From Thermoanaerobaculia bacterium (GTDB taxonomy: Bacteria; Acidobacteriota; Thermoanaerobaculia; Gp7-AA8), in assembly GCA_017883235.1 (NCBI GenBank), contig JADGNY010000055.1, positions 1-40,242 of the forward strand: 40,242 bases of DNA, written 5' to 3'. Positions 376-40,242 of this stretch are shown here, one piece after another (position 1 is the stretch's first letter; every line of letters begins with the position of its first letter). Made by a program: the position numbers and the translations under genes. The notes beneath the pieces are model-generated. The model was not told the DNA's origin and searched no databases. It worked only from the letters and a program-made list of their open reading frames with translations.

Positions 376-3300
376 GGACCGACCGGCCGGCGCGCCCGCG
401 ATAAAGCGCGATGCCGTGTGACTTCGCCACGACGTGAGCTTCTGCGCCGCGGTTGTCGTGGCGATCTTCTGCGGCAACAAAGTGCGATCTCCCGATGACA
501 CGGCGGGCGTCGCGCATTGGCTCAACAGAGTGCCGTGCTCTTTCACTTGCGTTCTGACATAGCGACTGAGCTGGGCAAGTGTCGGATAGCTGTAGACCTT
601 CGTCGCCTCGATCGACGTTTGATATTTCTCGTTGATCTTGCGGAGCCAGGTCACACCGGCGATCGAATCGAGGCCCACATCGACGAACTGTGCATCCTCG
701 TCGATGTCGCTCTCTTTCATCTGCAGCTCGTTCGCCAGTAGCGTTCTCAAGCTTGCGGTGACGGCAGAGAGCACGTCATCGGCGGCGGACGGCGACAGCG
801 CGCCGGCCTGCTTCGCGGGCTCGACCTGAACCTGCTGCGGGCCGGCGGCAGGCGCCTGGATCTCTGCATAGAAGTTGATCCGAATTTTCTCCGCTGTCGC
901 AGGCTGGCCCACAAACGTCTTTTCATGCATGGCCAGTTCGAGTCGATACGTCTCCTCCAGCGGCTGGTGTACATACCCGGTCAACTGCTGTTTGAGGCTG
1001 ATCAAGCGGTAGCGCGACGCCTGCGCGATTTGTTTGGCCAACGCCATCGCCGCCGGCACCACCTCGGACCGGCGCAACACACGAAGCCGGAGTCCTCTGC
1101 CTTTCAACTCCCGGCCGGTATAGGGCTGCGCCGTCAGCAGGCTTTCTCTGGCCAGGTCATGTCCGATCTTGTCCCCAAGAATCCACGTCGCGCCGGCACC
1201 CGGCGTGAATCCATAGTCCATATACGGACTCACATACCGGCTTTCTTCGCTCAGCAGGACAAGGTCAGCAAACATGCCCAGCGTCCAGCCGGCACCCAGG
1301 CCATGTCCCTGCATCGCGGCGATCACCGGGAGCTTACAGTCCAGCGGCAATTGATAGATCTTGTAATCCGTGAATTTGGCCTTGCCTTCCTGAATGGCCA
1401 GCAGGCTTTCTTTGGTCCCGCCGGCAGCAAAATAGGTGTCGTAACCGGTGAGAATCACAACCTTATAAGCCGACGTCTGCTCGATATGGGCGAAAACTTC
1501 AGTCATCCCTTCGATCAAGGCATCGGAAAACATGTTCTTTGCTTCCCGGTCCTCCATCGTCACGGCCACAATGCCGTTCGGGTAAGCGGTTGCCGTGACC
1601 ACACTTGAGCGAAGTGAAATGCGCCTGGGCGCGGCGGGGAGCAGGTCAGGTGTTTCGCCTTCCTGCTCCGCCCATGCCGGTGCGGCGCTGCGAATCTTCT
1701 GCTCGAGAGTGGTCACGGTATGTTTTTTCCAGGCAGCCAATGCGATGCGAGGCAGCTTGGCCCAGGAGGCCGCCACCTGCACGGCCGTCGACAGCACTTG
1801 ATCGTGCTCCGCCACCGTCAAACCGGCGACGCGTTGCTGGAGATCACTCCCCGAATAATTGCCGCCGGTCAGTAAGATTTCCCCGGCTGCCTCGTTGCCG
1901 AATCGATGCGCAAAGATCGCCGCGGCCGTTTGCCCGACGTTGGCCGAGGAATAAACACCTTGCCGGCTGTAGACACAGGCATCGCAGAACTGAGCGAAAA
2001 GCCAGGCGCTGCCTCTGGCATTGCCCGCCAAGGCCGCCACGACGGGGATCTCTGACTCGAGAATCAGGCGTTGGAGGTCCAACAGGGCATCCTCCGGGAT
2101 GACCGGAAGAAACTCGCCATTCTCGCTGACCAGGACGGCGGCTTTGTAGCGGCCGGATTCACAAATCCTGGCGAAAATGTCGCGAAGGTCCGCAACCAGG
2201 TCCCTCTTGTCAGCGAGACCGAACTTGACGACCATGACGTTCTCACCGGCCGGCGCAAGCTGGATATATGCCGCTGGCGAGACAATGGCCACATCCGACG
2301 GTGTGTCTGGCGCGGATGCCTCGATCTCGACAACCGTTAATGCTTCGACCTGATCGTGCAGGTGACGCGTCAGATGATGCTTCAGCAACCGGAGCGCATC
2401 CTGGGACTTCGTCGCCAACGTCGATGCAAGTCTCTGTACATACCCGTCGACTTGCGCGCCCGGAAGTATGGAACACGTCCATCCCTTCGCTCGCAGTTGC
2501 GTGCCCGTCGAAGTGGTGGAGTGGTACAAGAAGTCTAGCGTCAGGGCGTCGCCGAAACGCTCGCTGAACAGCATCTCCACGGGTGTCGTGGGATACAAGT
2601 GTTTGTCCGCGTCCGTGTACGCATACGTCGCGTCTTCATTGCACACCATGAAGTCGCACAGCGCTGCGGCCAGGAAGGCGGCGCCGATCGCATCGCCTTG
2701 CAGGACAGCGATGAGCGGGTACGGAAACGACACAATGGACTGGTAGAGCTTTTGCTCGACGGCTTCGTTGTACTCCTCTCTCCCACCGCGCGGGAAAGCG
2801 CGCTCGAGCCCGCTGAGCAGCAGTACCTTGATCGACGGCTCGCGTTGCACCCTGTCGAAGGCCTGCCGCACCTGGACAATCAGGTCCGTTGCCGGCGCCG
2901 CGCCGATTTGAATCGCGAATATCCCGTTCCCGTCGTCGTACAACCTGACCGCCGAAACGGCCGGTGCCGCGCCCGGGACGGTATTCGACAGCGTAATCGT
3001 CGCCCGTCCTGCTGACGGTTCTGCCGCGACAACCGTGCCCGGCGCGGTCAAAGAAACCGCGGCCGGCCTTTTCCGCCCGGCTGGCACCGCCGCCGCTCGT
3101 TCGTACGGCTCAAGAGCGATTTCCCTGCGCATCGGTGCGGCAGCAGGTTGATCGATGACCGGTTCGGCCACATCCATCGACGTCTGCTGACAGCAGACAC
3201 CTCGCATTTGCGCGGAGATATTGCCCCGCTCATCGCAGAGGTCGATGTCCAGTTTGACGACTGTGTCCGCCGGCTGATTTCCCGGCGAATAACGCACCCA

Positions 3301-6300
3301 CGCCACCATCTCTGCGACACAAGGCGAGACGATGCGCAACGTTTCCACGGCAAAAGGCAGTCGCCGCTGGCTCGTTCCGGGCTCACCGTCCAGAAATGCG
3401 ATCGCAGCTTGCAACGCACCATCGGTCAAGCTCGGATGGAGGACATACTCTCGCGACGAGCTTTCGGCGACGGTACCTGGCAGCCGCAATTGCGCCAGCA
3501 ATTGCCCGCTTCCTCGATGAATCGCTGCGATTGCTTGAAGAGCCGGTCCATAGACCAGTCCCATGCGGGCACAGGCCGCGTAAATGCTGCCCGGCTCTGC
3601 GTGCCCCTGCCGCATCTGTCCTTTGAGCTGATCGAGATCGAGTTTTGCGGGCGCCGGTTCGCCACTCAACACCACGCGACCCTGGCAATGGACGATCTCC
3701 TGGTCCGCGTCCTGACTGTAGATCTCATAGTCGATCCGGTCGCTGTCGTGCGCCAATAATGCGATGCTGACTTCCTTACTACCGGTAAAGACCACCGGTT
3801 GCGCCCAGACCACATCGCGCAACTCCAGAAGCTCTGACTGAGAACTGCGCCCCGCTTTTTGCGCTGCGGCCCGCGCCATTTCGAGATAAACCGCGGCAGG
3901 AAGAACCCTTTGACCACCGACTTCATGGTCTCTCAGAAAGAATTCCTCGCCGCTGAACGTCGAGCTGTAGCTCTGCTGGCTGAGGTCAGAGGTGTTACTG
4001 TGAAGCAGGGGATGCAGTACCGCGGTTGCGCCCTTGGCCGCTACCGGCTCGGCCGCCACATCGACCCAGTAGCGCTCTTTGGCAAACGGATATGTGGGCA
4101 GGCTGACACGTTGCGGTTTCGTCTCGCCGTAAAGCTTGCTCCAATCCACCTCGAGACCCTTCGCCCACAGATCCAGCAGCTTCGGGAATTTCTTGTTCGC
4201 GATCCATTTGTCGATGGTCTGCTGCAGGTCGGCATCCGTGCTGAACAACGACAGCGCTCGTTTGTCGCGTTTCACCTGACCGCGATACGCGTCTTCGATC
4301 TCCTGCTCGCCAGCCACATACGCTTCGAGCGTTTCGATCAGTTCTTCGACCGAGCTCGCGACGAAGCCCAGCCGTTCATCCATCCCCTCGCGACCCACTT
4401 GGAGCGTGTACGCCACGGCCGCCAGATCGATCTCGTTCTGCCGCCGGTGAATGAAATCCAGGAGATCGCGCGCTTTCTGCTGCAGTTGCCCGGCCGTCCG
4501 CGCCGACAGCACGATGACCGCTTCCGTAAACGCCATCGGCTGCGGAACCGGGGCCTGGTATTCCTCCACGATCATGTGAGCGTTGGATCCGCCAGCGCCG
4601 AACGAGGAGATCCCGGCAATCCGTGGCATCATTCGGCCGTCGATCACCGGCTGCTCCCATGGTCGCAATGACTGATTGACGACGAATGGGCTCTTCTCGA
4701 AATCGATGTACGGATTCAACCGCCCCGAATGGAGCGACGGCACGATCTGCTGATGCTGCATCTGCAACAGCACCTTCGTCAGTCCGGCAATCCCGGCCGC
4801 CGATTCGCAATGGCCGATATTCGATTTCGCCGATCCGATGAGGCAGAATCCGGTCTCCTGCGTATCCTTCTGGAAGGCTTTGCTCAGCGCTGCGATCTCG
4901 ATCGGATCGCCCAGTTTCGTACCGGTTCCATGCGCTTCGATGTAGCTGACGTGCCGCGCGTCCGTACCCGATTCCGCGAGCGCCCGGCTGATGACACTCG
5001 CCTGAGCTTGCGGGTTCGGCACCGTGTAGCCGTTGGTCTTGCCGCCATGATTGAGGGCGCTGCCTCGAATCACCCCGTATATGTGGTCGCCGTCCCGCTT
5101 GGCCTCGGAGAGTCGTTTCAGGACGACCACCCCCACTCCTTCTCCGGGAATGTAACCGTCGCCCCCTTCGCCGAAGCTCTGGCAGTGACCGTCACTGGAG
5201 ATGAACTGTCCGGCGCTGAGCACCAGGTATTTATTCGGGTGGATGCTGACGTTGACGCCGCTGGCGATGGCCAGGCTCGTTCGTCCCTGTTTGAGATCCA
5301 GACACGCGAAATGAATCGCCGTCAATGAAGACGAACACATCGTATCCAGGGTCACGCTCGGACCGTGTAGATTGAGCGTATACGACACGCGATTCGCGAT
5401 GCTGGCCATACTTCCAGGAACGCCGGCGCGTTTGCCTTGCGCGAGGGCCGCGGCGCCGAACAACTGGTATTCGGTGTACATGACGCCGACATAGACGCCG
5501 ACCTGTCCCGGCAGGTCGTGTACATGCGGCACCTGCAGGCTCGCGCGTGTGTATCCCGCGTCTTCGATCGCCATCCAGGCATGCTGCAGAAAGAGACGCT
5601 CTTGTGGATCGATCGACTTCGCGTCCTTGGGGGAGATGTTGAAAAACAACGGATCGAACTCATCGACGCCGGCAATGAAGCCGCCCCACTTGCTGTAATG
5701 ATGTCCGCTCCTGGTGCGATCGTCGCTGAAGTATTCCCGCCAGTTCCAGCGCTCCTTCGGTACCTCAGTGATGCAATCCCTGCCGTCACGCAGATTGCGC
5801 CAATAGGCGTCGACATCGATCGCCTCGGGGTAGCGACCGCTCAATCCGATGATGGCGATCGGATCGGATTCGGTTGTCGGGCTCGGGACAGCAGTCCGTA
5901 TGCGGCCGGGACGCCGGGCCGGCCTGGTTCGGGCCGGCGGTGGCGTTTCGAGCTGCGTGTCAGCCGGTTTTGTCCGGCCATTGCCATTGCCGGCGAACAG
6001 CGTTGCCAATCGCGCCGAATGCGATTGGATGAAGTATCTCGTTAACTCGCCAATGGTCTGGTATTCGAAAAACAGCGTCTTGGAGAGCGAGCCAAACGTC
6101 CGTTCCAAATGGGTGGTCAGCTTCACCGCGACGATCGAATCGATCCCGTAGTTCTCCAACGGCGCCTGCGGATCGATCCTCTGCGGCGGCACGTTCAACA
6201 CTTCTGAACACTGCCTGAGCAGGTAGTCTTGCGTTTTTTCTACGAAGCCGTCGCGCTCGATCGCCGCAGGAGCTGCCTCTGAAGCAACGGCTTGCACTGC

Positions 6301-7858: not shown

Positions 7859-9269
7859 CTACGCAGTGGCCGCCGTCACGAGGCCGGTCAGCGTCATTTC
7901 CGCATACCGTTGCATCAGGACGGCTGCAGCGCCGTTCATAATACGCTCGCCAATGTCAGAGACGTGACGATTACGCCACGACTCGAGCGCCGTTCCCTTT
8001 ACCCACTGATTGAATGCGCCGAGGGCTGGCCCACAATGCACCTGGTAATTCACCCTCTCCTCCTCGACGCCGCGCATCGCCAATCGAGTGGTATGGACGA
8101 AGTACCATTTGAACACCAGGGACATTTTCTGCCTGGGCGACAGCTCCTGCTTGTCGAAGCCGGGGTTGAGCCGGGAGTAATAGTTCTTCGTTTCGACCCA
8201 TACGTCTTCGAACGAACGCCCGAAGTATTTTTCCTCGATCTGCTTCCTGGTGTGGCTGTCGATCTCGTCCAGAGAGTTGTATCTCGTATAAAGCTCGTAC
8301 AGCTTGTTCGCCCGCCCTGGAAAGAAAACGCCTTTCCTAAGGACCTGGACCTTCGCTCCACTTTCAAACATGTCGCCCGCGGGAGCGTAGGCCGTGTCCT
8401 GAACGTCCATGTCCTGCAGCATGTCTTTCACAATGGCGCTCGTGCCGGCCTCCACGGTGCACTGATTGATGGAGCCGGTGGTAATGAAATCCGCTCCCAT
8501 GATGAACGCTGCTGCTGCTGCTTCCGGAGTGCCGATCCCGCCCGAGGCGCCGATCCGAATTCGCTTTCGATATGAATACCGAGCCATCATTTCGTCTCGC
8601 AGACGCAACATGGCCGGCATGAGAGCATAGGCGACGCCTCGATCCGTGTGCCCACCCGAGTCCGCTTCGACGCAAACCTCTCCGGCAACAGGAATGTGAC
8701 GCCCCAACTCGGCCTCCTGCGAGGTAAGGCCTCCTCTGGCAACCAACTCTCTGACCATCCCTTCGGGTGCCGGGCTCATAAAGGCACGGGCGACCTCAGG
8801 ACGGGAAACTTTGGCGAGAACGAAGTTGGGAGTGTTGATCGTCTCCCCCGGACCGCGGGTCAGCCCACGGAGCCGGTATCGCACGACGCTCGGCGCGACG
8901 TCGGTATAGGCCGCAGCTTCGACGAAGCGGATCCCGCGGGACAGGAAGAGATCGACGGTCCGATCCTCCAGCTCGCGATCGGCCATGTTGTGGAGCAGGT
9001 TCATGCCGAAGGACTGGCCGGCGGTGATTGCGGACCTGATCGAATCGATCGCGGCGTCGATTCTCTCGATCGCCAGCCCGCCCGTCCCGAAGTAGCCGAT
9101 CAGACCCGCCCTGGCCAGGGCGGCGACCAATGCTTCTGAAGCGATGGCCTTGTACATCGAGCCGGCCGTGTACGCATACTTCACACGGTAATCGGATCTG
9201 AACTCGGAATCGCCGAGGCGCGCCGGGTCGATCATCCTGGTCTCGAAGGAAAACGTCATCTGAAACGGC

Positions 9270-9292
<23 letters not shown>
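7859..9292 (-). CDS. pfaD: PfaD-type trans-acting enoyl reductase (FMN-dependent, nitronate-monooxygenase fold)
   Basis: 477 residues, the normal length of stand-alone PfaD/PksE-type reductases. Family hallmarks are visible: VKYAYTAGSMYKAIASE near the N-terminus, GTGGL, the FMN-phosphate region GASGGIGTPEAAAAAF, MGADFITTGSINQC, GDMFESGAKVQVLRKGVFFP, and the C-terminal GPALGAFNQWVKG. In trans-AT PKS systems this protein reduces enoyl-ACP intermediates in trans, replacing in-line ER domains; none of the modules here has an ER. The first ATG (9292) overlaps the end of the upstream PKS gene by 23 nt, which suggests translational coupling. An in-frame ATG at 9259, 10 nt past the PKS stop, would remove 11 residues and is equally possible. 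The gene lies exactly between the two halves of split module 5, so that module is a plausible target (inference). Confidence 0.96.
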
Positions 9293-31922
<22,630 letters not shown>

Positions 31923-32128: not shown

Positions 32129-32836
32129 CTATTCCTTGAGGAAGGCGAACTTCGCCTGTTGGTACTTCGGCTTATTCACCACTTTTTGAATGTACGGCAT
32201 CAGCTTGAACAACATCTGTTTGCGCTGCTCATTGAACATGACCTCGGGGACGAATCCATTGAGATCCATGTTCAGCCGGTAGTCGATCTCGATCTCGCCG
32301 TTGCCCACCGGTTTGACAAACCACATGTTGTTCATGCGGGTGACGCGAACGCAGCAGTCATTGGGAGGAAGCTTCTCGGGTGTCGCCGCGTATTCGATGG
32401 TGAGCTCTTTGGTGAGCGGGTTCTGATAGAACTGCGCTCGGACGACGAATTCTCTCGGACGAAACGGCCAGGGGGAATCGTAGCGAAACGTGCTGTACAC
32501 CAACTGATCGTCGACTCGCTCCAGGAGCCGTGATTCAGTACAGCCAACACGGTCGCAAACGTCCGGGTCCTGCGCCATTTTGACCATGCCCGCCAGCGTC
32601 GAGCGGATGCGCGTAACGCCCCTGACCTGTTCCAGACTGTCGCCGGGCGCCTTCAGCGCATAGACTTTCACTCCGCGCCTTTCCCCGATCAGTCTCCATT
32701 GATTCGACCCGGAGAACTTCCAGATCGTTTGGGCAGCGAACAGTAGCACGAGGAGAGATGCGCTCACGATGAACAGGCCTCTGGCAAGCTTTTGGCGCCT
32801 CGTTTTCGGTTTCGCTGTTTGATCCTGCTGTGTCAT
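32129..32836 (-). CDS. Membrane-anchored START-domain (lipid-transfer-like) protein
   Basis: About 235 residues. A basic N-terminus (KTRRQKLAR) is followed by one hydrophobic segment at about residues 19-38, then a soluble domain of about 190 residues. That domain has START/Bet v1-like features: ERRGVKVYALK, a YDSPWPFRPREFV strand pair, and a long C-terminal amphipathic helix. START domains form a deep hydrophobic cavity that binds lipids or other apolar ligands. I infer a single-pass signal-anchored protein whose binding domain is probably outside the cytoplasm. The ATG at 32836 is preferred because GAGAGGGA lies 5-6 nt upstream; a longer frame from 32878 would place that site within the gene. 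Its role in the pathway is unknown. Binding or shuttling of a hydrophobic product or of membrane lipid is possible. It sits alone between two palindrome-bearing gaps of 162 and 206 nt, so it may not belong functionally with its neighbours. Confidence 0.82.
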   Translation of the reverse strand: MTQQDQTAKPKTRRQKLARGLFIVSASLLVLLFAAQTIWKFSGSNQWRLIGERRGVKVYALKAPGDSLEQVRGVTRIRSTLAGMVKMAQDPDVCDRVGCTESRLLERVDDQLVYSTFRYDSPWPFRPREFVVRAQFYQNPLTKELTIEYAATPEKLPPNDCCVRVTRMNNMWFVKPVGNGEIEIDYRLNMDLNGFVPEVMFNEQRKQMLFKLMPYIQKVVNKPKYQQAKFAFLKE

Positions 32837-32852
32837 GTTGTCCCTCTCTTTA
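32834..32852 (-). promoter_or_regulatory. Ribosome-binding site deciding the START-protein start
   Basis: On the minus strand GAGAGGGACAAC precedes the ATG at 32836, a purine-rich Shine-Dalgarno site with 5-6 nt spacing. It excludes the longer in-frame start at 32878 as the main one. Confidence 0.75.
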
Positions 32853-32924
32853 GAATGTCTGCAACGATGATCGAACACTTCGCCTTACAGTCGCCTGAAC
32901 CGGCGTGTAAGACACCTCACTACG

Positions 32925-32995
32925 GTTGCTGGTTGCTGTGTCGCTGGTCGCTCGCGGTGCGCGGCTTTCAGGCGCGGCCTTCGCAAGCAACCAGG
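32925..32995. repeat. Related palindromic element in the gap after the GMC-like gene
   Basis: It shares a 17-base block (32925-32941 with 31987-32003) and a 14-base block (32950-32963 with 32004-32017) with the other element; 8 bases are inserted between the blocks here. GCAAGCAACC at 32983-32992 can pair with the GGTCGCTCGC stretch at 32946-32955, allowing G.U pairs. Both copies read in the same direction. They look like members of a dispersed intergenic repeat family. Confidence 0.7.
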
Positions 32996-32998
32996 TCT

Positions 32999-34312
32999 TC
33001 AGATGGAGCGCGACAGGTGATTGGCTAGATACTTTCCGAGGCAGATCAGCGTCAGGGTCGGGGTGACCACATCCGGCGGCACCACCGAGCCGTCGCATAC
33101 GTACAAGCCGCGGTACTCCGTCTGCAGGTTCTCATCGACATGTTCTTGGATTCTGAGCGTGCCGGTGATGCTCGACGCATTGACGAACGTTCTGAACAGA
33201 TTCTTTCCCCCGGCGTGCTCAATGAGGCGGCGGGCGACCTCTTCGCCTTTGGCGAGCTTCGCTCCATCTTCAGCCGCGAGCTCCTTGTAGTAACGGCCGT
33301 CCTCCCGCAGCTCCCCACCGGGACCATCCATGATCATGACGCCTACGGCGATGGCGTTCCCGTACCGAAACACCCGAAGCCATTTACGCTCGCGCAGCAT
33401 GAGCAACCGGTGCACCGTGCGATCGAAGTTCGCATCGCCGATGTGAATGTCGTTATCGACGATGAATCCCCAGCTGCCACCGAAGCCTTCGGTCCCTTTC
33501 AGTCCCGAGATGGTGCCGAACACCGCGAAGCTCGGATGACAGAAGAAGCCACGATTCGCGACGTTCCTGATTCCGCTCGCGCGAAGGAGGAGCGGCGTCG
33601 ATGCGCAGCCGGCGGCCACGACGATCTTCGATCCGAAGACCTGGCGAGTCTCGGCCTGCCTTCTCGTTTTCCCCAGTTCGTACTCCACACCGATGGCCCG
33701 GCCCTGATCGACGAGGACCCGCCGGGCTCTGGCTCCATTGATCAGGGTGGCGCCGTTCCGGACGGCGTCCTCGACGTAGCTTCTGGCCGTCCATTTGGCC
33801 CGGTAGGAATAACCGGAAGTGCACGTGGACTGATCGACCAGCATCCGGCGTATGACCAGCTCATGACCCATCGCCATGGCGCTGTCCCGCAGTTTCAGAG
33901 ATGGCGGCCGCAATAGCGCGTCCGGCAGTGTCGCCAGCGGCAACTCGCTTTCCGCCTCTTCCAGCGCCATGGACAAATCGATTCCCAGAGACCGGAACGT
34001 CTCCAGGGGCGGACGAACCGCCGACCCCAGATAGACGGCCGTCGTGCCACCTGTCGTCAGGGCCCTCCCCATGAAGATCTTGCCGCCCACGGAGACGCCA
34101 TTCAGAATCGAGACGGTGGCGAACAGACCGTCGCGCAGCGGTGCATTGCCGCCACGTTCGAGAATCAGCACTCTGCTCCCCCGTCTGCTCAATTCCCTCG
34201 CGACTGTCGCGCCGCCGGGCCCTGAACCGATGACAATGGCATCGAATTCGGCGTTGCCAGGCTGTTTATCCAAACGAGCCTCCAGGTGCGACCATGCGTC
34301 CCTTGAATGCAT
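32999..34312 (-). CDS. GMC-like FAD-dependent oxidoreductase
   Basis: About 437 residues with an N-terminal dinucleotide-binding fold: DAIVIGSGPGGATVARELSR followed by an acidic ILERG at the end of beta-2. The substrate-binding half contains KWTARSYVEDAV, as in choline-dehydrogenase-like GMC proteins, and the C-terminus has LYVCDGSVVPP. GMC enzymes oxidise alcohols or aldehydes using FAD. The protein is shorter than classic GMC enzymes (500-550 residues). The usual C-terminal HPxG and NPxxT signatures, which supply the catalytic His and Asn, are not recognisable; TPTLTL stands where NPxxT is expected. It may use other catalytic residues, or may not be a standard dehydrogenase. Start: the ATG at 34312 directly precedes the FAD motif. 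An ATG at 34354 would overlap the MATE stop by 22 nt; neither has a strong ribosome-binding site. A tailoring role is inferred from position. Confidence 0.85.
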   Translation of the reverse strand: MHSRDAWSHLEARLDKQPGNAEFDAIVIGSGPGGATVARELSRRGSRVLILERGGNAPLRDGLFATVSILNGVSVGGKIFMGRALTTGGTTAVYLGSAVRPPLETFRSLGIDLSMALEEAESELPLATLPDALLRPPSLKLRDSAMAMGHELVIRRMLVDQSTCTSGYSYRAKWTARSYVEDAVRNGATLINGARARRVLVDQGRAIGVEYELGKTRRQAETRQVFGSKIVVAAGCASTPLLLRASGIRNVANRGFFCHPSFAVFGTISGLKGTEGFGGSWGFIVDNDIHIGDANFDRTVHRLLMLRERKWLRVFRYGNAIAVGVMIMDGPGGELREDGRYYKELAAEDGAKLAKGEEVARRLIEHAGGKNLFRTFVNASSITGTLRIQEHVDENLQTEYRGLYVCDGSVVPPDVVTPTLTLICLGKYLANHLSRSI

Positions 34313-34332
34313 GAATGTCGTGAGCGACGGGC

Positions 34333-35658
34333 TCAGATCTTGACACTTTTCCATCGGCCCTGGGCCCAGATCGCGGTGATCAACACTGTCGCAATCGCAC
34401 CGTAGACCATTTGAACGAGCCAGATTTGCAGGAGACCGTATCTCAGCCAAGGGCCGACGATCCAAACCGCCGGCAAAAAGATGATCCATTGTGTACCGAA
34501 TGAAACCAGGATGACGCGATTGCCATCGCCGACGCTGAACAACGTATACGCGAAGATATAGATCAGGCTGCCCAGGCCAGTCGTAGCCGCCACCATTCGC
34601 AGCGGTATGACGGCCATCGCTATCGTGTGGGGATGCATGAGAAAAACAGAAAGAACGCGCTCCGGAAAGAGAAAAAGCGGAAGGCCGAGTAAGGTGATCC
34701 CGATGACCCCCAGCTTTCCTGCGTCCCAACCCCACTCCGCGGCGCCTGCAGGATCGCCGGCCCCTACATTTTTCGAGACCAAGGTCGCGGAGGCTGTTCC
34801 CAGCCCCATCGCCATGAGCACGAGTACCATCGAGATTCTGACCAGCACATTCGCGGCCGCCAGCTCCGCCGTTCCGATCTTTCCAATCATCCAGAAAAAC
34901 ACGAGATAGCCGAGCGCAAAAAGAAACTCCTGCATGGTAGCGGGGATTCCCAGTTTGAGGATGCGCACCATAAGAGCCCGCCCTGGCTTTGCGGTCAAGA
35001 ACCCTTCCTTTCGGTCACGCCAGTAGATGAGCACGAAATTGATGATCACGCCCACCCAGAGGGCCGTGGCCGTGCTGACGGCGGCTCCCGTAGCTCCTAA
35101 GGCGGGCAGGCCGAACCTTCCGGAAATCAGAGTGTAGTCCCCTGCGAAGTTCAGGCATTGCACGAAGAGGACGATCACCAGGTTCACGTTCGGCTTTTCG
35201 ATGGCGTACCAATAGCCTTTGAAAGCGCAGACCATTCCTACCGCGGTGACGCCCGTGTATAGAGTTCTGAGAAATGGAACGGCTACTTTGACGACCGCAG
35301 GATCAGAGGAGAGCAAAGAGACGAGGAAAGGAGTGAAGAAGTAGCAAAGGATCGTTAGAGGTACGCCCACGACCAGCGCGGTCAAGAGACCTGCATTGAG
35401 CGGCAGGCATCTCGGTTCCTTGGAGCCCTGGCCTCTCCTGCGGGCGACGATCCCTTGGACCGCAGGCGCAATCCCCCCCACGAAAGCTAAAACTAGGATA
35501 TTGCTGAATACCGCTAATCCCACCGCTGCGCTGGTGTGGTTCCCCAATCTTTTCACGAAGGCCAGATCGACCAGCGACATGGCCAAAGTCAAACTCACGG
35601 AGATGAATACGGGAAACGCCAACGCGGAGATGGTCTTGGTTCGATCCCAAGTGATCAT
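34333..35658 (-). CDS. MATE-family multidrug/product efflux transporter
   Basis: A polytopic inner-membrane protein of 441 residues, the usual size for MATE (MatE/NorM-like) antiporters, with roughly twelve hydrophobic segments separated by short basic loops such as RRRGQG and YWRDRKEG. MATE pumps use a Na+ or H+ gradient to export organic compounds. Here the likely job is export of, or self-resistance to, the product of the locus (inference from context). I chose the ATG at 35658 because GGAAGGGG lies about 7 nt upstream; a TTG at 35676 in the same frame would place this ribosome-binding site inside the coding region. The gene starts 59 nt after the NRPS stop and its TGA is 20 nt before the preferred start of the flavoprotein gene, which suggests co-transcription. 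Confidence 0.92.
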   Translation of the reverse strand: MITWDRTKTISALAFPVFISVSLTLAMSLVDLAFVKRLGNHTSAAVGLAVFSNILVLAFVGGIAPAVQGIVARRRGQGSKEPRCLPLNAGLLTALVVGVPLTILCYFFTPFLVSLLSSDPAVVKVAVPFLRTLYTGVTAVGMVCAFKGYWYAIEKPNVNLVIVLFVQCLNFAGDYTLISGRFGLPALGATGAAVSTATALWVGVIINFVLIYWRDRKEGFLTAKPGRALMVRILKLGIPATMQEFLFALGYLVFFWMIGKIGTAELAAANVLVRISMVLVLMAMGLGTASATLVSKNVGAGDPAGAAEWGWDAGKLGVIGITLLGLPLFLFPERVLSVFLMHPHTIAMAVIPLRMVAATTGLGSLIYIFAYTLFSVGDGNRVILVSFGTQWIIFLPAVWIVGPWLRYGLLQIWLVQMVYGAIATVLITAIWAQGRWKSVKI

Positions 35659-35675
35659 GTTAAATTCCCCTTCCA
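35645..35675 (-). promoter_or_regulatory. Ribosome-binding site deciding the MATE start
   Basis: On the minus strand GGAAGGGG is followed after about 7 nt by the ATG at 35658. It favours this ATG over the in-frame TTG at 35676. Confidence 0.75.
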
Positions 35676-35717
35676 AGAATGTGAATCGGTGTGTTACCGC
35701 CCTACTGCCTCACAGAG

Positions 35718-38700
35718 TCAACAATCCGCCAACTCGCGAATATGCACCTTCGCCAGGATGGAAAAATGAGTGGCCTCGACGTCGTAGGTACGAATCGGAG
35801 TCTGAAGCAACCGATCCCAGCCGTAATCGCGAGGCATGTCCGGTCCGTTGTGACGCGCTTGCGTCGCGCGGTACAGCGACACATCGATCTTCCGTGACAG
35901 CATCGACGGTGTGTAGGCACGATAGCTATCCACATTGGCTCGATAGACCCTGTAAAACGCGGCGAATTGATCGGCATTGATCTCCATGCCGCGCTCGTTC
36001 AGCAGTCGAGCGATGGTTTGGACGTTCTCTTCGGTCGTCGATTGTCGTAACCGTTCGACATCGATCTCCACGTCTGCGTCATACAGATTGGCCACCGCCG
36101 TACACGCCTCGACGAGCGCGTCGGCCTCGTCATGAGCGGCTCTTCGCTGCATGACCGACGGAGCGATCGAGTCCAGCAAGGTCAGCGAGGAAATCTCCTC
36201 TCCCTGCTCCACCAGCATCCTGGCCATTTCATAGGCGACTACGCCGCCGTAGGAGTGCCCGATCAGGCTGTAGGGACCTGCAGGCTGTACCGTTTTCAGG
36301 GCCTCAATATTCGTTCGCGCCGTTTGCTCGACGCTGCTGTGAGGCGCCGTTTTACCGTCGAGGCCAACGGCCTGGAAGGCGAAGAGGGGCTGATCGCCCA
36401 GCGCCCTGCCGAGGGGTCGCAGCGACAGTACGTTCCCACCAGCTCCCGGCACGGCGAAGACTGGCGGCGCATTGCCATCCTTCCGAATGGGAATCAGGAT
36501 CTCGAACGACGGCGCCTCTTGACTCGAGATCGCCTTCGCCAACGCGGCAATGTTCGGAGCAGTAAAGAGGATCGCCAGAGGCAGCATCTGGTTGAAGTGC
36601 CTCTTGGTTTTCGCCATCAATTGCACTGCCGACAGCGAATGCCCACCGAGCTCGAAGAAATTGTCATTGACTCCGATAGTCTCCGGCGCCCGATTCAACA
36701 CCTCCGCCCAGATGCCGACGAGTTGCTGCTCCCTCTCTGTGCGCGGCGCCACATACTCCTGACCGGCACCGATGGTCACGTCCATCCGCGCCAGCGCCCG
36801 GCGATCCACCTTGCCATTCGGGTTCAGCGGAATCGCCGCCAGGCTGACGAACGCCGCCGGCACCATGTACTTCGGCAGCGTCTGCTGGAGATGCCCGCGC
36901 AGCTCCTCATTCGGCAGATGAACGATTTGATCTGCCGTGGTCTCTTTGGCGCGATAGAAGGCGATGAGCTGTTTGTTGGCTCCTTCACCCTGCGCGACCA
37001 CGGCGCTGTCCTGTATACTGGGGTGCTGATTGAGCCGGGCTTCGATCTCGCCGAGTTCAATGCGGAAACCACGGATTTTGACCTGCGTGTCGATTCTGCC
37101 CAGATACTCGATATTGCCGTCCGTCAGCCATCGTCCCCGATCTCCGGTCCGGTACATCCGGGCCTTGGGATCGGAGCTGTAGGGATCCGAAAGAAACTTC
37201 TCCGCCGTCAAATCGGGCCGGTTCAGATATCCGCGCGCCACTCCTGCGCCGCTCACGTACAACTCGCCTGCCACACCTAACGGCACCGGCTGCCGCCGGG
37301 AATCGAGAACGTAAATCCGGGTATTCGCAATCGGCCGCCCGATGGGAATGGAGCGCTTTTCGCCGACTGGCGCGTCGATCTCGAACGTGCAGCAGCCCAC
37401 AGTGGTCTCCGTGGGCCCGAAGTGATTCACCAATCTGACTTGAGGAAAGCGGCGCTGCCAGAACAGAATATCCGACGGGATCAACGCTTCCCCGCCGATC
37501 ATCAGGGCCGCCGTGGGCGCCCTGTTCCCATCCGCGGCAATCATTTGATTGAAGAGCTTCAGATGCGAAGGTGTGACTTTGATCAACGTGTAAACAAAGC
37601 TGCCCGAGGAGCACGCCTGCGCCAGACACTCCATCTCTGATCCCTGCGGCAGCAACCTCAGTGTCTGCCCCGCCACCAAAGGACCAAACAACGTCGTCAC
37701 CAGTCCATCGAACCCAATCGAATGAACCGCCGGCGAGCCATCCTCCGCCTTCCGGAAATATGCAGCGTCAGACCAGCGCAGATAATTGGAGAGATTCCTG
37801 TGCTCGATCATGACCCCCTTGGGCTTACCAGTGGACCCGGAGGTATAGATCACGTAAGCCAGATGATCAGGCCTCACATCGACGGAATCGAGGTTTGCAC
37901 TCCCTTGCTGCTCGGCAACCCTCCATTCACTGTCTACGGCAATGACCTGAGCCGAGGTCTTCGGCAGAATCCCCTTCAACCCCTCCTGCGTGAGCACGAT
38001 CGTCGGCGACGCATCCTCCAGCATGTACTGCAATCGCTCCGTCGGATAGCTCGGATCCAGCGGCACATAGGCGCCGCCTGCCTGCAGTATCCCCAGCAGC
38101 CCCACCATCATATCCAGCGATCTCTCCATACAAAGACCAACCAGACTGCCAGGTGTGACTCCCTGCGCTCGTAAATAGGAGGCCAGCGCGCGGCTCTGAT
38201 CATAGAGCTCTCGATAACTTAGTTGTTGCTCGCCAGACACGACCGCCGTCCTGTCAGGATGGATTGCAACTTGCGCGGCGAACATCTGATGAACGCACTC
38301 GTCCCTGGGGTAGTAGTCGGTTTGCGTATCGTTGTAACGGTTGAGCAGTTGGTGTTTCTCTGCCTCACCTATGTAGTCCAGAGAGCCGATCGTAGCGGTC
38401 GGTGCGATTATGATTGCCTGGCACAGGGCAATGAAGTGCCCGATCATGCGCTCGATGGTCTGCGGCTTATACAGCGCTGTACTGTATCGGATTGCGCCGG
38501 CCAGCCCCGCCGACGTTTCCGCAAACTCGAGTGTGAGATCGAACTTGCTGATGCCGCTTTCCAAAGGATAGGGCTGAATACTCTGGTTCAGCGCTCCTCC
38601 CATATCGGCATTCTGCAAGGTCACCATGACCTGAAATAGAGCGCTGACCGCCAGGTTGCGCTGAGGATGCACCATGTCCACTACCTTCTCGAACGGTGCA

Positions 38701-40242
38701 TCCTGATGCTCGTAGGCCTCCAGACAGGTGGCCCTGACCCTCGCGAAGAACGCGACAAAGGTATCGCCAGGCTCGATCTGGCTTCGTAGGGCCAGAGTGT
38801 TGATGAACATCCCGATCAGCCCTTCCGTTTCCCAATACTGCCGGTTGGCGATCGGGCTGCCGACACAGAGGTCGTTCTGGCCCGTGTAGCGATAGAGCAA
38901 AGCTTTGAAGGCGGCCAAAAGCACCATGTACAGCGTGCCGCCCTGTTGTTCGGCCAGGCGCTTGAGCTGTCCCGTCAGTTGCCCGTCCAGGGCGAACGCA
39001 TGGCTCGCGCCGGCGTAGGAGGGCACGCTCGGCCTCGGATAGTCGGTCGCCAGATCGAGACTCTCCGAAGCACCGGCCAGTTTGTTCTGCCAGTAGGCGA
39101 GTTGCCGCTCGAGAATCCCTCCCTCTTCCAGCCATTTCCGTTGCCAGACGCTGTAATCGACATACTGAATCGGCAGCGGAGGCAACTCCGGACGACGGCC
39201 CTGACGGAAGGCCTCCAGGATCACGCCCAGTTCCTTGATCAATACAACGAGGGACCACCCGTCACTGATGATGTGATGCATATTGAGCATCAAGATGTGC
39301 TCATGCTCGGCGAGCTTGATGGCCTTCCCGCGCAGCATCGGTCCGTTGGCTAAATCAAACGGCGTCGCCGCGTCCGCTCGACAGAGTCGTCTCGCTTCGT
39401 CGTCGCGGGCCTCTCTGCTTTCGTAGTCGCTCAGATCGATGCGCTCAAGCTTGAAATCAACTCGATCCAGGATACGCTGGTGAGCCCGACCATCCTGGCT
39501 CGGGAACAGCGTGCGCAGATTCTCATGCCGGGCAATGATCAGGTTGAACGCCTCTTCGAGCTGGCCCAGATCCAGCGCGCCACTGATGGTCACCGCTCCC
39601 GGAATGTTGTACCCGGCGCTGTTGGGCTCGAGCTCGCTCAAGAACCACAGCCTTTCCTGCGCAAAGCTCAGCGGCAGCCGCTCGAATTGCGATCGGTCGA
39701 CCGGTAGGATGGGAGGAATGTCGTTCTTCTCTCCCTTTGCCACCAATTGAGCCAATTGAGCGACACTGCCACCCTCAAACAGCGATTTCAGAGGGAGGTC
39801 GACGTCGAGCCGGCTGCGGATCTTCGAAATCAGTTGCGTTGCGAGCAGCGAATGCCCGCCCAGCTCGAAGAAATTGTCATTGACCCCAATGCTCTCCGGC
39901 GCCCGGTTCAACACCTCCGCCCAGATGGCAACGAGTTGTTGTTCCGTCTCTGTGCGCGGCGCCACATACTCCTGACCGGCACCGATGGTCACGTCCATCC
40001 GCTCCAGCGCGCGGCGATCCACCTTGCCATTCGGGTTCAGCGGAATCGTGGCCAGGCTGACGAACGCCGCCGGCACCATGTACTCCGGCAGCGTCTGCTG
40101 CAGATGCCCGCGCAGCTCCTCATTCGGCAGCTCGACGATGTGCTCTGCCGTGGTCTCTTTGGCGCGATAGAAGGCGATGAGTTGCTTGTTGGCCTCCTGG
40201 CCCTGCGCGATGACCACCCCGTCCTGGATCTCCGGGTGCTGA
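35718..40242 (-). CDS. Non-ribosomal peptide synthetase, C-terminal part (A-T-C-A-T-TE), runs off right edge
   Basis: The frame is open to the right edge, so the start is missing; 1507 residues are visible. Domains in order: the C-terminal end of an adenylation domain (NPNGKVDR near 40020); a carrier domain (GGHSL near 39850); a condensation domain starting at LPLSFAQERLWFL with the active-site motif HHIISDG near 39265-39280; a full adenylation domain (YTSGSTGKPKG, GPTETT, NGKVDR); a second carrier (GGHSL near 36640); and a type I thioesterase with GHSYGG, LLDS and a late ATHFS His. It therefore adds at least two amino acids and releases the product by hydrolysis or cyclisation. My manual reading of the specificity pocket of the complete A domain is D-G-T-K-M-G-H-V-G-K, closest to Asp-activating codes (inference). 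The condensation domain looks like the ordinary LCL type and no epimerase is present. The MATE gene follows after 59 nt. Function is certain; substrate is tentative. Confidence 0.97.
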   Translation of the reverse strand, partial: QHPEIQDGVVIAQGQEANKQLIAFYRAKETTAEHIVELPNEELRGHLQQTLPEYMVPAAFVSLATIPLNPNGKVDRRALERMDVTIGAGQEYVAPRTETEQQLVAIWAEVLNRAPESIGVNDNFFELGGHSLLATQLISKIRSRLDVDLPLKSLFEGGSVAQLAQLVAKGEKNDIPPILPVDRSQFERLPLSFAQERLWFLSELEPNSAGYNIPGAVTISGALDLGQLEEAFNLIIARHENLRTLFPSQDGRAHQRILDRVDFKLERIDLSDYESREARDDEARRLCRADAATPFDLANGPMLRGKAIKLAEHEHILMLNMHHIISDGWSLVVLIKELGVILEAFRQGRRPELPPLPIQYVDYSVWQRKWLEEGGILERQLAYWQNKLAGASESLDLATDYPRPSVPSYAGASHAFALDGQLTGQLKRLAEQQGGTLYMVLLAAFKALLYRYTGQNDLCVGSPIANRQYWETEGLIGMFINTLALRSQIEPGDTFVAFFARVRATCLEAYEHQDAPFEKVVDMVHPQRNLAVSALFQVMVTLQNADMGGALNQSIQPYPLESGISKFDLTLEFAETSAGLAGAIRYSTALYKPQTIERMIGHFIALCQAIIIAPTATIGSLDYIGEAEKHQLLNRYNDTQTDYYPRDECVHQMFAAQVAIHPDRTAVVSGEQQLSYRELYDQSRALASYLRAQGVTPGSLVGLCMERSLDMMVGLLGILQAGGAYVPLDPSYPTERLQYMLEDASPTIVLTQEGLKGILPKTSAQVIAVDSEWRVAEQQGSANLDSVDVRPDHLAYVIYTSGSTGKPKGVMIEHRNLSNYLRWSDAAYFRKAEDGSPAVHSIGFDGLVTTLFGPLVAGQTLRLLPQGSEMECLAQACSSGSFVYTLIKVTPSHLKLFNQMIAADGNRAPTAALMIGGEALIPSDILFWQRRFPQVRLVNHFGPTETTVGCCTFEIDAPVGEKRSIPIGRPIANTRIYVLDSRRQPVPLGVAGELYVSGAGVARGYLNRPDLTAEKFLSDPYSSDPKARMYRTGDRGRWLTDGNIEYLGRIDTQVKIRGFRIELGEIEARLNQHPSIQDSAVVAQGEGANKQLIAFYRAKETTADQIVHLPNEELRGHLQQTLPKYMVPAAFVSLAAIPLNPNGKVDRRALARMDVTIGAGQEYVAPRTEREQQLVGIWAEVLNRAPETIGVNDNFFELGGHSLSAVQLMAKTKRHFNQMLPLAILFTAPNIAALAKAISSQEAPSFEILIPIRKDGNAPPVFAVPGAGGNVLSLRPLGRALGDQPLFAFQAVGLDGKTAPHSSVEQTARTNIEALKTVQPAGPYSLIGHSYGGVVAYEMARMLVEQGEEISSLTLLDSIAPSVMQRRAAHDEADALVEACTAVANLYDADVEIDVERLRQSTTEENVQTIARLLNERGMEINADQFAAFYRVYRANVDSYRAYTPSMLSRKIDVSLYRATQARHNGPDMPRDYGWDRLLQTPIRTYDVEATHFSILAKVHIRELADC
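36637..37029 (-). repeat. Direct repeat, copy 1: A-domain end plus carrier domain of the NRPS
   Basis: About 390 bp that matches 39850-40242 base for base at roughly 90% by eye with a constant offset of 3213 bp (1071 codons, one C-A-T module). It covers the C-terminal subdomain of the last A domain and the start of the carrier. Confidence 0.85.
39850..40242 (-). repeat. Direct repeat, copy 2, reaching the right edge
   Basis: Second copy of the repeat at 36637-37029. It continues to the last base of the window, so the repeated tract is probably longer. Confidence 0.85.

Follow-up and report, generated by a model that had tools for sequence, protein, structure and literature searches.

A triplet of ECH2-derived crotonase units, two truncated and one complete, in trans-AT PKS modules of Acidobacteriota and Bacteroidota

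The locus described here raises the question of why a trans-AT PKS should keep two truncated crotonase-like units directly in front of a complete one. The window, that is, the whole stretch of DNA analyzed, is an entire contig (C77) of 40242 bases belonging to an assembly of 6.9 Mb in 246 contigs. Its main genes lie on the minus strand and encode a 7550-aa PKS (31922-9270), a second PKS truncated by the contig end (7797-1) and, between both PKS genes, a PfaD-like protein (9292-7859). This putative trans enoyl reductase shows an NMO fold with a FabD-type helical insert (window 7859-9292). Inspection by eye of the upstream region (window 32129-40241, minus strand) indicated an NRPS with C-A-PCP-TE-like content (40241-35718), a MATE-type transporter (35676-34333), a GMC/FAD oxidoreductase-like protein (34735-32999) and a START-like protein (32878-32129). 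Plus-strand open frames of up to 861 aa are found opposite the PKS genes (window 9400-31900), most likely as a side effect of the GC-rich codon usage. The PKS cluster is distributed over several contigs, and the window ends within a KS. Contigs C77 and C167 stop at the same residue within a near-identical KS (...SGSKCSVFVGCAAG); these breaks are probably assembly failures at the repeated KS sequence, and the cluster therefore extends beyond the window.

The end-truncated PKS carries a tandem of three crotonase-fold units, named u1, u2 and u3, which form block B (window 868-2949, minus strand) and correspond to residues 1617-2310 of the translated protein in a single open frame. The first two units are truncated ECH2-like crotonases recognized by the Pfam ECH_1 model (u1, 2317-2949, 69.5 bits; u2, 1687-2271, 60.7 bits). 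The third one (u3, 868-1608) is a complete in-cis ECH2 of the mECH type, recognized by the NF005496 model and considered a putative decarboxylase. Directly behind the block, on the same strand, is the acceptor ACP (532-798), whose translation contains the motif GLDSIAGVTW with the Trp flag encoded at positions 646-648. The same module includes a KS (4729-5865; Pfam ketoacyl-synt and Ketoacyl-synt_C) and a DH (3175-4014) identified by Pfam PKS_DH_N/PS-DH and by its HEVGGQRVLP motif, so that the order is KS-DH-u1-u2-u3-ACP, with KR absent between the DH and the ACP according to the Pfam and motif scans. In a beta-branching module that lacks a KR, the substrate of the DH is not obvious. The start of a downstream KS, cut at the contig end (1-366, minus strand), was recognized by translation and would take over the branched chain from the block B module.

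A homologous triplet, block A, is located in the 7550-aa PKS (window 21642-23717, minus strand). It consists of u1 (23121-23717), u2 (22461-23057; Pfam ECH_1 26.5 bits, slightly below the cut-off of 27) and an ECH2-type u3 (21642-22385) that keeps the catalytic His and differs from PksI by G66A, K80R and F234I, followed by an ACP with the Trp-flagged motif GLDSILSVTW (21333-21581). The DH region ahead of block A (window 23760-25100, minus strand) lacks the HxxxGxxxxP motif (FFLKAQTDGGTVQKVLAG) that is present in the block B DH. Block B had been described in the original prediction as a second triplet with the same unit order ahead of a Trp-flagged ACP, and the comparison unit by unit agreed with this description, with similarities far above chance: 56% identity for u1 (E 7e-83), 48% for u2 (E 5e-58) and 64% for u3 (E 5e-113), while different units within a block shared only 21-26% identity with one another. 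All the motifs quoted in the prediction were found in the sequence, including YGFTPGAGAT and LAMHEKTF in u3 of block B, for which block A has YGFAPADGST and VILHDKTI. The two copies then proposed are both in the window, but the count was short, as the genome holds a third triplet, block C, on contig C167.

The origin of the three units was addressed with family models, structural databases and phylogeny. Among the crotonase families, u1, u2 and u3 all scored best to the PKS ECH2 model NF005496, whose curated cut-off is 215 bits; in block B the scores were 108 bits for u1 and 89 bits for u2, both under the cut-off, and 285 bits for u3, and u3 of block A was also over it (254.5 bits). The closest PDB chains were PksI for u1 (E 1e-17) and CurF for u2 (E 2e-19), and u3 of block A matched PksI at E 3e-61. 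In a maximum-likelihood tree of 54 rows that included ECH1 enzymes from three cassettes, u1, u2 and u3 each clustered by unit across Acidobacteriota and Bacteroidota (support 84/98 for the u1 clade, with the u2 and u3 clades starred). All three units were placed inside the ECH2 family and the ECH1 enzymes were set apart at 100/97; u3 joined embedded ECH2 domains, not PksI-like trans enzymes. In the Nostoc and Ensifer pairs, the first unit gave a very long row, and its grouping with u1 counts as no more than a hint. The position of the three units within the ECH2 family, apart from ECH1, indicates that the block is an ECH2 triplication and not an ECH1-ECH2 pair. Thus, all three units derive from a PKS ECH2 decarboxylase of the PksI/CurF type and not from ECH1, and u1 and u2, although paralogues of ECH2 in descent and fold, are not ECH2 enzymes.

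This distinction comes from the active-site positions, which were assigned in PksI numbering (PMC7501309) and scored residue by residue in 11 of the 24 blocks collected. The catalytic His (PksI H230, CurF H240; PMC7501309) has its equivalent in u3 of all 24 blocks and, according to the alignment with PksI, is encoded in block B at positions 925-927 (minus strand) within LAMHEKTF. Both u1 and u2 stop before this position in the 11 scored blocks, and in all of them the ten-residue active-site loop that carries PksI K80 and F81 is deleted from the two units. The oxyanion-1 Gly was found in 9 of the 11 scored u1 copies and in none of the 11 u2 copies, and u1 carries a conserved stretch of the YNxAxEQKL type. 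Judged by their residues, u3 is live and both u1 and u2 are catalytically dead.

Structure predictions suggest that the fold has nevertheless been retained. In the PDB search, the AlphaFold model of u1 from the homologous block E matched CurF with a Z score of 23.6 (213 residues, 3.1 A), and that of u2 from block B matched PksI with a Z score of 24.2 (203 residues, 2.9 A). The predicted models of u1 and u2 thus keep the ECH2 fold, and the term degenerate, previously applied to both units, holds for them as enzymes, with their residues missing, but not as folds. These Foldseek/VIA searches compare single units, and most of the matches listed are to one unit; AlphaFold2 runs on the whole triplet, carried out with two query blocks and five sequences each, gave a pTM of 0.42 both times, a value from which no packing of the units on one another is deduced.

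Selection on each unit was estimated as pooled NG86 dN/dS over seven block pairs, some of them paralogous or with high dS, so that single values are rough. The pooled dN/dS was 0.26 for u1 (95% interval 0.22-0.31), 0.34 for u2 (0.30-0.40) and 0.16 for u3 (0.13-0.20), with about 0.66 and 0.55 for the linkers, one of whose intervals extends above 1. All pairs pointed the same way, and the closest ortholog pairs gave 0.18, 0.19 and 0.14 (Ga-Ha) and 0.24, 0.27 and 0.20 (Gb-Hb) for u1, u2 and u3, respectively. Therefore, u1 and u2 are under purifying selection, which is weaker than that acting on u3.

The 24 triplet blocks were collected from nine genomes of Acidobacteriota and Bacteroidota. Three of them (A, B and C) belong to the window genome, two to an acidobacterial MAG, two to Fulvivirga imtechensis AK7, two to each of two genomes of the Fulvivirga order, three to each of three genomes of the Fulvivirga family, and four to G1328, an acidobacterium of the window's own family. 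A contig pattern scan with unit 1 patterns gave three loci only, and further genome searches added more blocks. The u1-u2-u3 order and open frames were found in all 24 blocks, among which neither loss of u1 or u2 nor frameshifts were detected. No complete triplet was found in a broad Acidobacteriota sample outside the window genome, or in a broad Bacteroidota sample except in Fulvivirga. Two plasmid matches (Eleftheria and the thiomarinol plasmid), in which several query pieces had fallen on one single ECH2, were corrected by a domain scan. Both the selection on u1 and u2 and their retention in homologues, which had been suggested as checks, bear out the earlier proposal that the two units matter and are not debris.

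In the four triplets of G1328 (L081, L082, L079 and L083), u1 and/or u2 are about 30-60 residues shorter. Three of these blocks have a u1 of 147-166 residues and a u2 of 139-166 residues, and the fourth one has a u2 of 162 residues. The losses are largely in the oxyanion and active-site-loop segments and adjoining helices, the u1 oxyanion loop being lost in three of the four blocks. The shrunken units keep the central strand-helix core (for example FPxPxIA...CDFxV), and u1 also keeps the C-terminal helices. Erosion of u1 and u2 in G1328 stops before loss, and these blocks provide a natural series for the minimal scaffold that is retained.

The triplets are coupled to the acceptor ACPs of beta-branching. 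According to the motif scan, the Trp-flagged ACPs in the window and in contig C167 are exactly those located behind triplets A, B and C, and the remaining ACPs of the window lack this Trp. Several tandem acceptor ACPs behind Bacteroidota triplets (L040-L043, L064-L066, L069-L071 and L073-L075) have Phe or Leu instead of Trp (GLDSIVGVTF, GLDSITGVTL), and the Trp is therefore not absolute. The window genome also encodes an HCS on contig C100 and an ECH1 on contig C35 adjoining KS, PPTase and AT genes. Apart from the triplets, no ECH2 was found in this genome, where a generic crotonase with 27% identity came next among the matches, and u3 is therefore its only ECH2. The acidobacterial MAG is alike in this respect, with HCS and ECH1 and without ECH2 outside the triplets. 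Fulvivirga-type clusters include HCS, ECH1 and a trans ECH2 plus two cis triplets, so that in-cis decarboxylation is not the sole route in these Bacteroidota. In another Bacteroidota genome (G1084, L067/L088), an ECH2 without a truncated unit is located at the N-terminus of a PKS protein, which comes behind a protein with tandem Trp-flagged ACPs.

The reading preferred here, to which a probability of about 0.5 is assigned, is that the block acts as an in-cis decarboxylation station of a beta-branching module, in which the dead u1 and u2 are kept as structural partners of u3. A trans HCS cassette (HCS, donor ACP, decarboxylating KS and ECH1) would build a 3-methylglutaconyl-type branch on the Trp-flagged ACP, and u3, as a modular ECH2, would then decarboxylate this branch in cis, with an exo-beta-methylene as the probable product. 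A structural role is the most likely reason why the dead ECH2 duplicates u1 and u2 persist, and together with the live fold they could form a pseudo-trimer within the chain, whose only active site would lie beside its ACP.

PksI, PksH and the CurF ECH2 form trimers in which every subunit has its own active site (PMC7501309), and BonH and BonI were found to be trimeric by SEC (PMC12560621). The pseudo-trimer is proposed because PksI, the CurF ECH2 and BonI are trimeric and because u1, u2 and u3 sum to three. The triplet would then be a covalent pseudo-trimer with one active site, produced when an obligate homotrimer was domesticated into the dimeric line by tandem triplication and inactivation of two subunits; this more specific model is tentative and is placed somewhat below even odds. 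PKS modules are dimers, and hence mismatched to a trimer. If the pseudo-trimer model is true, it would resolve the conflict in symmetry that a trimeric crotonase meets in a dimeric PKS, and pairing of two chains might yield a hexamer-like body on the two-fold axis of the PKS. Counted against the model are relatives that carry a single truncated unit (Nostoc, Ensifer and the lasonolide cluster) or none (Eleftheria), since no in-chain trimer is possible there. The pTM of 0.42, the trans ECH2 of the Bacteroidota clusters and the Phe or Leu in several of their acceptor ACPs are also set against the preferred reading.

The main rival to the pseudo-trimer is that u1 and u2 are docking platforms that recruit the trans-acting HCS and ECH1 or hold the acceptor ACP near u3, in which case a trimer would be irrelevant. 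The location of both units directly before the acceptor ACP is consistent with such a role, and the known single truncated ECH of LasH/LasO (ECHa) has been called inactive, with its role unproven (PMC9600693). That a single truncated unit suffices in other clusters fits docking better than a trimer. However, the conservation of u1 and u2 tracks core crotonase positions, and the shrunken copies keep core strands and helices, so that docking is regarded as rather unlikely. A catalytic or gating role of u1 or u2, for example by binding the thioester in what is left of the oxyanion hole and directing the alpha,beta versus beta,gamma outcome, is improbable. It would be in keeping with the oxyanion-1 Gly and the conserved stretch of u1, with the statement that a truncated ECH ahead of ECH2 accompanies exo-beta-methylene formation (PMC9600693), and with the real role of a non-canonical ECH, with Gln for His, in aurantinin synthesis (PMC11425284). 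Nevertheless, the His and the active-site loop are missing from both units in all scored copies, u2 is also without oxyanion-1, and u1 has lost its oxyanion loop in most G1328 blocks. The view of u1 and u2 as neutral debris of tandem duplication carried along by a functional u3 has very little left in its favor; their higher dN/dS in comparison to u3 and their shrinkage in G1328 would agree with it, but it was rejected in view of dN/dS values far under 1 with narrow intervals, clearly less constrained linkers, retention in every block across two phyla and folds that are predicted to be kept. Finally, the first units as in-cis ECH1 dehydratases of the PksH/MupJ type, following the antiSMASH-based labels of OnnB, whose tandem ECH domains were published as ECH1 and ECH2 (PMC6855096), were rejected as next to impossible, since u1 and u2 fall with ECH2 in the tree, far from the ECH1 rows, a true standalone ECH1 is present elsewhere in 5/5 genomes tested, and the catalytic residues are absent from both units.

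With structural partnership of u1 and u2 still as the preferred reading, the triplet can be compared with known systems. The ECHa-ECHb tandems of lasonolide LasH/LasO have, as here, an inactive truncated ECH directly before an in-cis ECH2 (PMC9600693), and the OnnB/PedI-type tandems of the pederin family show the same arrangement (PMC6855096); as in the blocks described here, they are found in modules with Trp-flagged ACPs of trans-AT PKS. Units u2 and u3 fit this pattern, and u1 is an extra truncated unit. The lasonolide/pederin type is a pair, whereas here a triplet is found with two distinct truncated units, each in its own clade across two phyla, and selection on the truncated units has been measured. 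Exo-beta-methylene formation is said to be commonly accompanied by a truncated ECH before ECH2, although lasonolide has an endo case (PMC9600693). The in-cis modular ECH2 domains of weishanmycin and kalimantacin are reported to yield exo-beta-methylenes (PMC12560621, PMC7618002); u3 is likewise an embedded ECH2 with a predicted exo-beta-methylene product, but in the passages considered no dead units are described ahead of the mECH, in contrast to the two found here.

Unit u3 shares sequence family, fold and catalytic His with PksI and CurF, and u1 and u2 share the fold. The free homotrimer of PksI has three active sites, whereas each chain has here one active site and two dead units, and the CurF ECH2 occurs as a single domain of a cis-AT PKS and not in a triplet. 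The aurantinin protein Art21 contains an ECH-Q, a non-canonical relative of ECH2 which, like u1 and u2, lacks the catalytic His and is nevertheless important in vivo; in contrast to these truncated units, the ECH-Q has full length, is fused to a TE and carries Gln in place of the His, and it acts in succinyl incorporation, not in beta-branching (PMC11425284). In the open papers searched, also with regard to pseudo-trimers and the Fulvivirga trans-AT PKS, no description of an ECH triplet was found, although an earlier report is possible. Thus, pairs of a single truncated ECH and an ECH2 were already known, and the triplet with two separate conserved dead units appears to be new.

Truncated ECH domains beside in-cis ECH2 have been noted before and called inactive, without a role being known for them. 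As the triplet shows, selection can maintain two such dead units over long times, and the triplet suggests a testable reason for their persistence, which is the completion of a trimer within a dimeric megasynthase. If this is true, it would explain the pattern, would guide the choice of cut sites for moving beta-branching modules, and would provide a clear example in which pseudoenzyme subunits share one chain with their live partner.
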